Origin: a virus | Virus record (IMG/VR): IMGVR_UViG_3300017788_000077 | Span: 1 to 37,013 of that record | DNA length: 37,013 bases | Direction: 5' to 3' (one strand) | Shown here: in pieces, positions 30,496 through 32,046 of the stretch | How positions within the stretch are numbered: position 1 is the first letter of the stretch | Layout of the letters: each line of letters begins with the position of its first letter | Position numbers and translations under genes: made by a program | Notes under the pieces: generated by a model | Databases searched by the model: none | The model's input: the letters and a program-made list of their open reading frames with translations, nothing else | What the model was told of the DNA's origin: nothing

Positions 30496-31317
30496 TCAAT
30501 CTTCAGAGCCTTCAAATCTCTTCATCGCATTAGCATAGTCGCCTTCGCCCATTCTGGTGTAACTAGGATTCATACCGTTCATTTCTAATAGATCATCTCG
30601 GATATTTTGATTACGTTTTTCTATGTTAATAATTCTTACAAAACTATTAGTCACTGCGGCTGTAAAATAAGCGAAAGGGTTGTCCGATTTACTTTCGTCA
30701 AACTGTAAACCAATCTGGGTTAATTGTAAAATAGCCTGCCCCTTCATTTCGTCATTGTAGGTATAACCGCGAACATTGCCCCGTGTAGCATAGCGTTCGC
30801 AGAGCTTAATATACATGCGAGCTAGATTATTTGTGACCTGTCCGTGATCTTTGCTAAATTTGCCTTTTTCAACAGTGCCTTTCCAATGACTTTTTCCAAC
30901 ACATACTAGTTCGTCATTCTCATTAAATTTCCAATGTTGGAAAGGAGGAAAATTAACCTTGTCTCTATGATCGGCTGTGGATTTGGGATTCTTTTTCCGT
31001 GTGCTGTTTAACGGAACATGATCAAATGTCATAATACGGAAAATCACATCCGTTTTAGCAATTTTTTTATAATCTATTTCGCAGTCAGCCAACTTGACCT
31101 TTTCTCCTGCTTGTTTACGCCTCTCGAATTCTTGTTGGCTTAGTCTTTTGGCTTTGTTTCTTTTGGCGTCTGCGACTGTACGAATATTAATCTTACCTAC
31201 ACTAGGTAAGATTAAGTCGTATTGATGATATTCTTTTTTAGTAAATGAGCAATATGTATTTTTGCTCCTATGTATTTCTTCTAACAAGTCTTTATTGTTT
31301 AAGTAATTGATTTTAAT
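30496..31317 (-). CDS. 55: Late-promoter sigma factor gp55, apparent ATT start after homing-gene insertion
   Basis: The protein is gp55-like: a small sigma-type factor that directs host RNA polymerase to ATAAATA late promoters. Evidence is the T4-like place before gp47/gp46 and the segment ITDD/QLTQIGLQFDESKSDNPF, AYFTAAVTNSFVRIINIEKR, which resembles sigma region 2. The first in-frame TTG (31287) has no ribosome site. Extending upstream to ATT at 31317 gives (M)KINYLNNKDLLEE... with AAGGAG 7 nt before it, ideal spacing. This start aligns codon for codon with the stub MKVNYLNR that lies beyond the homing endonuclease gene. The length is then 273 aa. The AAGGAG lies inside the last codons of that endonuclease gene. 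Use of ATT is inference; TTG at 31287 is the alternative. Confidence 0.85.
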   Translation of the reverse strand: MKINYLNNKDLLEEIHRSKNTYCSFTKKEYHQYDLILPSVGKINIRTVADAKRNKAKRLSQQEFERRKQAGEKVKLADCEIDYKKIAKTDVIFRIMTFDHVPLNSTRKKNPKSTADHRDKVNFPPFQHWKFNENDELVCVGKSHWKGTVEKGKFSKDHGQVTNNLARMYIKLCERYATRGNVRGYTYNDEMKGQAILQLTQIGLQFDESKSDNPFAYFTAAVTNSFVRIINIEKRNQNIRDDLLEMNGMNPSYTRMGEGDYANAMKRFEGSED

Positions 31318-31318
31318 T

Positions 31319-31960
31319 TTAATTCTCCTTTAAATGTTTGCAATTATCAAAGTGCCATCTAACCATAGCACTAGCTCCGCCGGATTTACCACAAATAGGG
31401 CAAACACTGATCGGTTTTGAACGATTCTTTAATTTTTCTTTAATTTTTTCTTTTGTTTCTGTTGTTTTTAGTTTTCCTTTTGCAGCGATTGACATTTTCT
31501 TTTTAGATTCTTCTTCTCGTTTACGTCCATTATTTGCTTTAGAAATTTTCTTTTTAGTTTCTTCAGAAAGAGGATGCCTGATTCTGTTTTTTGCTGCAAT
31601 CGATCTTTTTAATCTAGTTTCATCAGATTCATTTCGTTTTGCTTCTGATAGTTTCTTCCTTGTAGTAAGGGAAGGATTTTTTAAACCTTCTCCACCGTTT
31701 GTTTTATTATTAAGTATTCCTGTGTTTAAATCTTTTCTACCGTATTCTGCTATAAGTTTTATTTCTAAATCGAGTGCTTCTTGTTCAAACAAATTTTTTT
31801 TAAAAAATATTATACATTCTGGTAGAGGAGGCTCAATCCCGTGATGTTTAACAAATGCTCGATTATCAATACCTTTTCCTATATAATACGGAGTACCTGC
31901 TGTTGCAGTTTTTGAGTCTTTACTTCTAATGTAGGCATACACATAAAAATTATTTTTCAT
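31319..31960 (-). CDS. GIY-YIG homing endonuclease (Seg-like) with NUMOD repeats and zinc finger
   Basis: A free-standing homing nuclease of 213 aa. The catalytic domain shows VYAYIR (7-12), YYIGKG (25-30), Arg34 and the Glu66 helix (ALDLEIKLIAEYGR). Next come several basic DNA-binding repeats of the NUMOD3 kind (LSEETKKKISKANNGRK and relatives, about 95-170). A C-terminal zinc-finger-like end follows (CPICGK...HFDNCKH, about 190-208). It sits between a gene 55 stub and the intact gene 55 body. It has no good ribosome site; ATG lies 7 nt after the stub's stop, so it may be read by re-initiation. The Lys-rich, AT-rich coding differs from gp55 and gp47, as expected of an acquired gene. Confidence 0.9.
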   Translation of the reverse strand: MKNNFYVYAYIRSKDSKTATAGTPYYIGKGIDNRAFVKHHGIEPPLPECIIFFKKNLFEQEALDLEIKLIAEYGRKDLNTGILNNKTNGGEGLKNPSLTTRKKLSEAKRNESDETRLKRSIAAKNRIRHPLSEETKKKISKANNGRKREEESKKKMSIAAKGKLKTTETKEKIKEKLKNRSKPISVCPICGKSGGASAMVRWHFDNCKHLKEN

Positions 31961-31967
31961 ATCTTAT

Positions 31968-31994
31968 TTATCTATTAAGATAGTTAACTTTCAT
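31968..31994 (-). pseudogene. 55: Eight-codon stub of gene 55 left upstream of the homing gene
   Basis: ATG at 31994, behind GGAG (32002-31999), encodes MKVNYLNR and stops. The start of the gp55 body downstream reads (M)KINYLNN. Six of the eight positions agree if the start codon is set aside with V/I counted as similar, yet nearly every shared residue uses a different codon: AAC/AAT, TAT/TAC, CTT/TTA, AAT/AAC. This is the expected remnant of the original gene start, now perhaps serving as a leader peptide for the homing gene. Confidence 0.65.
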
Positions 31995-32017
31995 AATACT
32001 CCAATATAGATCTAACA

Positions 32018-32046
32018 ATTATAAACTACGCGGTTTATTTTGTCAA
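32018..32046 (-). promoter_or_regulatory. Consensus sigma-70 promoter for the gp55-gp47-gp46 operon
   Basis: Minus-strand TTGACA (32046-32041), a 17-base spacer and TATAAT (32023-32018) match the host sigma-70 consensus at 12 of 12 positions. The start would be near 32011, about 17 nt before the gene 55 stub. It is an early-type promoter for the leftward operon. Confidence 0.9.

Follow-up and report, generated by a model that had tools for sequence, protein, structure and literature searches.

How does a phage keep its late sigma factor when a homing endonuclease gene has settled inside the start of the gene that encodes it? The question is raised by the window, a stretch of 37,013 nucleotides of viral DNA (IMG/VR record IMGVR_UViG_3300017788_000077), in which gp55, a nuclease gene and a short reading frame that we call the stub all lie on the minus strand, in the order promoter, stub, nuclease, gp55 (Table 1). 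ATG 31994 opens the stub, which reads MKVNYLNR over eight codons (31994-31971) and closes with a stop at 31970-31968. The promoter at 32018-32046 now heads stub, nuclease and gp55 alike. Beyond the nuclease gene the gp55 frame resumes at ATT 31317, which lies 7 nt past AAGGAG and opens (M)KINYLNNKDLLEEI. This layout of stub, GIY-YIG gene, AAGGAG and ATT restart in the gp55 frame had been drawn up in a first-pass annotation made from the letters alone, and every coordinate of it was confirmed on the sequence. Only AGG AGA ATT AAA separates the in-frame stop from ATT 31317, so the frame contains no ATG, GTG or TTG ahead of TTG 31287. A second in-frame ATT is located two codons upstream of ATT 31317, but only 1 nt from AAGGAG; of the two, 31317 is the one that aligns with the native ATG.

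Table 1. Features of the interrupted gp55 locus in the window
Feature	Position	Strand	Evidence
Native gp55 promoter, TTGACA-17-TATAAT	32018..32046	-	12/12 consensus match
Native gp55 ribosome site, GGAG	31999..32002	-	Sequence
Stub, ATG AAA GTT AAC TAT CTT AAT, then AGA TAA	31968..31994	-	First 22 nt equal uninterrupted L010
Predicted GIY-YIG homing endonuclease gene, 213 aa, zinc-finger-like C-terminus CPIC...HFDNC	31319..31960	-	PHROG homing endonuclease, 1.6e-16
Strong ribosome site AAGGAG within the last nuclease codons, predicted to serve gp55	31325..31330	-	SD energy -8.7; conserved AAGGRGAAYYAAAATT
Predicted gp55 start codon, ATT	31315..31317	-	Alignment position of the native ATG; stop in frame a little upstream; 8 lineages
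Respelled first gp55 codons KINYLNNK, travelling with the nuclease	31291..31314	-	Comparison with relatives; codon-difference count
gp55, late sigma factor of the T4 type, 273 codons counted from ATT	30496..31317	-	PHROG sigma factor for late transcription, 2.1e-75

We compared the locus with gp55 genes that lack the insertion. All 80 of the 80 gp55 relatives at 79-86% identity are uninterrupted. Uninterrupted relatives begin gp55 with MKVNYLNN or close variants, and in most of them a TTGACA-TATAAT promoter like that of the window leads into ATG and (x)KVNYLNNKD, which is the MK(V/I)NYLN start behind the promoter that had been anticipated for them. One such locus (L010) reads ATGAAAGTTAACTATCTTAATAAC, 22 nt of which are identical to the window stub from the first base. 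Across 152 scored uninterrupted loci, drawn from two sets of relatives, gp55 starts with ATG in 137, GTG in 8, TTG in 7 and ATT in none. The relatives' starts, together with the exact match to L010, identify the 8-codon stub, on the strength of its sequence, as the native gp55 start, now displaced, and place the ATT where the native ATG would stand. Of the outcomes that the first-pass annotation had named as contrary to its reading, neither of the two open to sequence comparison was found: the stub resembles the relatives' gp55 starts, and none of the uninterrupted relatives starts at the position of TTG 31287. We rejected that TTG as the start of gp55 in the window, as its use would remove the conserved NYLNNKD segment that the relatives have.

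The interrupting gene encodes a predicted GIY-YIG homing endonuclease, with the core residues (Y-V-Y, YYxGKG, R34, E66 and N85/N88) invariant in eight relatives. Pfam gave no GIY-YIG match for the window nuclease; NUMOD3 falls just under the cut-off in it and over the cut-off in L083, L084 and L250. The AlphaFold model of the nuclease is poor (pLDDT 62) and too weak to carry a conclusion on the fold; its top matches are UvrC GIY-YIG domains at non-significant scores. The gene is free-standing, with neither intron nor intein: nuclease and gp55 each have their own frame and stop, and a search of Rfam returned no intron match around the nuclease. For the window nuclease itself no clear ribosome site is present; its first codon lies 7 nt past the stub stop, so that ribosomes may reach it by way of the stub.

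Searching with the nuclease protein, by alignment and with junction patterns, we found the window's arrangement repeated at the same gp55 codon in about nine further lineages, drawn from independent metagenomes (carrier loci L082, L083, L084, L248, L250, L336, L338-341, L342 and L392, of which L338-341 are near twins of L250 and L392 has the same sequence as L251). A scan for the exact junction in the window's spelling gave no match, but a broader pattern did; the left-junction scan returned, among the matches listed, mostly unrelated AT-rich sequence. In every carrier with a readable stub the insertion point falls after the codons for NYLN. We rejected chance or an assembly artefact as the source of the arrangement, since contigs of about a dozen independent metagenomes share it, and likewise a second gp55 copy elsewhere, none being present in five carrier records; each of these, one of 329 kb among them, holds one gp55.

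The distribution of the nuclease is patchy. The window's closest gp55 relatives are all without it. Between carriers it is better conserved than the genes beside it: the nucleases of the window and L082 share 75% identity, versus 50% and 66% for two neighbouring genes, and against the other carriers nuclease identity is 61-67% and gp55 identity 45-50%. These figures, with occupation of the same codon in about 10 lineages, fit horizontal spread to a single site. Among the matches listed, no close relative of the nuclease was seen at gp55 in isolated phages.

The unusual start codon recurs along with the nuclease. gp55 restarts at ATT in the window, L082 (whose contig ends five codons into gp55), L083, L248, L250/L338-341, L336 and L342 (whose contig opens within the nuclease gene); in L084 and L392 it restarts at ATG. 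With the window counted, L345 included, and the window and L082 taken as one, this gives eight ATT lineages against two with ATG. In all eight the ATT sits exactly at the start-codon position, as had been proposed for the window. When the last base of the start codon was left free (ATN), ATT alone was found at gp55. The type of start codon tracks the C-terminal module of the nuclease: SDEVK accompanies ATG (L084 and L392), and the ARRAA and zinc-finger types accompany ATT, so that the gp55 start and the right end of the nuclease seem to travel together as one module. In L345 the insert has shrunk to a remnant that holds no long open reading frame, and gp55 still opens AAAGGAGAATCAAA ATT CGT with a stop shortly upstream; judged from this locus, the ATT-start gp55 has outlived the nuclease there.

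Several carriers depart from the common arrangement in detail. The stub is lost in L336, where the nuclease reading frame appears to open with a CTG immediately after the ribosome site native to gp55 (~1343, reverse complement). The stub starts with ATA rather than ATG in L082 (2967-2993) and L392 (1235-1264), with the remainder of the stub kept. In L250 (3627-3645) and L338-341, CAA stands in place of the TAA that ends the nuclease, which is thereby three codons longer and overlaps the ATT CGT start of gp55. The gp55 reading frame of L345 (8890-10815) spans 641 codons and contains an intein-like insert (RGY|CVDTATEAL ... LTGN|TYVDEM).

We propose, at a probability of about 0.78, that the locus holds a mobile homing-endonuclease unit that targets the start of the late sigma gene in large T4-like phages and carries a replacement start with it. 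The unit would consist of the nuclease gene and, at its right end, a ribosome site (AAGGAG or AAGGGG), a 7-nt spacer, ATT and the respelled first gp55 codons. Most likely, the nuclease cuts the gp55 start of uninterrupted phages, and repair copies the nuclease together with this right-end module into the recipient. Insertion after NYLN would leave behind, as the stub, the promoter, ribosome site and first codons of the recipient, bring the nuclease under the gp55 promoter and let gp55 restart from the carried copy, presumably from an AUU backed by the strong ribosome site. Since the carried copy is respelled and has no ATG, the restored gene would probably escape its own nuclease while uninterrupted relatives are cut. 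The structure and the ATT start put forward in the first-pass annotation are upheld by these comparisons, and its two functional proposals, target immunity and a lowered gp55 dose, we continue to infer.

Codon comparison bears out that gp55 now begins from a second copy of its start, spelled in another way and moving with the nuclease. Between stub and own carried copy, 26 of 36 shared-residue codons differ (72%) in the seven carriers with both copies, against 50% in random pairs of uninterrupted alleles (P=0.003); swapping carried copies among carriers gave a permutation P of 0.035, and the numbers in both comparisons are small. This excess divergence supports, without proving, recoding for immunity against the nuclease's own target. 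A tentative alternative, which we consider on balance somewhat doubtful, is ordinary co-conversion: in a distant phage the nuclease would have been the upstream neighbour of gp55, and on moving it would have taken the adjacent donor allele along, making the spelling simply donor sequence and the ATT a hitch-hiking accident, with no selection for immunity or dose. A natural allele, L074 (AAAATCAATTACTTAAACAA), has nearly the same spelling as the carried codons, so a co-converted foreign allele would explain much of the respelling, and the tracking of start codon by C-terminal module is likewise as co-conversion would have it. This account sits less easily with the divergence of own stub and copy beyond that of random allele pairs, with the pairing of ATT with strong ribosome sites, and with an ATT that is unchanged across lineages at 45-50% gp55 identity when a single base change would give ATG. 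Loss of the ATG is not obligatory for the unit, as L084 and L392 keep it in the carried copy.

We then considered how gp55 might be translated from such a start. The carried ribosome site is AAGGAG or AAGGGG, with a 7-nt spacer before the start codon. Its predicted energy of pairing with the 16S tail (SD energy) is -7.8 to -9.3 kcal/mol in the ATT lineages, whereas the leaders of uninterrupted genes average -5.5 kcal/mol (best -8.2; n=100 distinct) and the two ATG carriers, L084 and L392, reach -5.6 and -6.4 kcal/mol. A strong site thus accompanies the weak start and may offset it. RNA folding around the start gave no sign of a sequestered ribosome site, because the ATT sites are as open as uninterrupted starts or more so. 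Translation of gp55 would presumably begin at AUU, and its dose may be lowered or sensitive to IF3. In L248 and L250, an in-frame ATG seven codons upstream of the ATT is a possible gp55 start.

Precedents for such control exist in bacteria. AUU and AUA starts with an extended SD in S. aureus give about 10% of AUG output (PMC13009471), and SigR of Streptomyces uses a non-canonical GTC start that is repressed by IF3 (PMC5472188). By this parallel, ATT may be kept for translational control rather than immunity, holding late sigma output low or IF3-sensitive behind the nuclease gene, a possibility to which we give a little less than even weight. It is compatible with the mobile unit proposed above and concerns only the reason for which ATT is kept; the strong site that accompanies ATT and the ordinary site that accompanies ATG are in keeping with it, but L084 and L392 manage without ATT.

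Expression of gp55 without initiation at ATT appears very improbable, whether ribosomes were to shift from the nuclease frame by +1 at AAGGAG AAT TAA or splicing were to link the stub to gp55 in one transcript. gp55 does lie in the +1 frame relative to the nuclease, and an SD-like AAGGAG just ahead of the nuclease stop is reminiscent of prfB. L345, however, keeps the same ATT site without a nuclease reading frame and has a stop shortly upstream, which led us to reject a frameshift fusion. A group I intron or other splicing was rejected in turn: Rfam gave no match, the downstream copy repeats the exon, and carriers exist without a stub (L336) or without the stub ATG (L082, L392).

The replacement-start unit resembles several known systems, each in part. 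In phage Aeh1, mobE leaves nrdA in two pieces; gp55, by contrast, is fully restored. The two cases share a free-standing nuclease gene embedded in an essential gene of a T4-like phage (PMC2988022). The free-standing seg and mob genes of T4 either lie between genes or split them (PMC2988022), and the seg genes share with our unit a GIY-YIG nuclease, a modular C-terminal DNA-binding part, the absence of intron and intein, and use of the host-gene promoter; they sit between genes, however, whereas the gp55 unit lies inside a coding sequence and re-supplies the gene start. Closest in logic are the mobile ORFs of fungal mitochondria, which come with duplicated ends of genes, in Allomyces atp6 and in Glomus atp6, atp9, cox2 and nad3 (PMC3630166). 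In these, as here, a nuclease in an essential gene supplies a foreign, mostly synonymously diverged end and leaves the native remnant behind; the gp55 locus has both the displaced native piece and a foreign, predicted functional copy with mostly synonymous differences. The fungal elements replace the C-terminal end and keep the native start, whereas the phage unit replaces the start, the ribosome site and the start codon, so it works like the fungal class and is not a member of it. An AUU start is shared with infC, pcnB and S. aureus cvfC1, the last of which also has an extended ribosome site (PMC13009471, PMC5472188); those are cellular genes, unlike the phage late sigma factor, whose start is predicted to have been brought by a mobile element. 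The open-access literature searched yielded neither a published nuclease in gene 55 nor one that carries a gene start, as the present unit does with its conserved AUU for a phage sigma gene.

If the proposed unit behaves as described, a selfish nuclease can settle in an essential gene without intron or intein by bringing a replacement start, which would probably also make the carrier genome immune. Two old questions become testable at this locus, namely by what means a free-standing homing gene spares its own genome and whether it can rewire control of host genes. For annotation, gene finders limited to ATG, GTG and TTG would put the gp55 start ten codons too far downstream. A broader proposition, on which we are evenly divided, is that a class of phage homing elements hits gene starts, carries its own translation start module and repairs the gene with a recoded, nuclease-proof start, and that in gp55 the conserved AUU puts the late sigma factor of many phages under AUU/IF3-sensitive translation that lasts beyond loss of the nuclease. 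A similar architecture in a second gene suggests a general class. In L281 (2968-3650) and L276 (2970-3650), a 125-aa phage gene (PHROG 11637) runs, after about codon 11, in frame into a more remote GIY-YIG gene (36-39% identity), and the first codons of the phage gene are re-supplied with a different spelling. The re-supplied start in both is an ATG that overlaps the nuclease stop.
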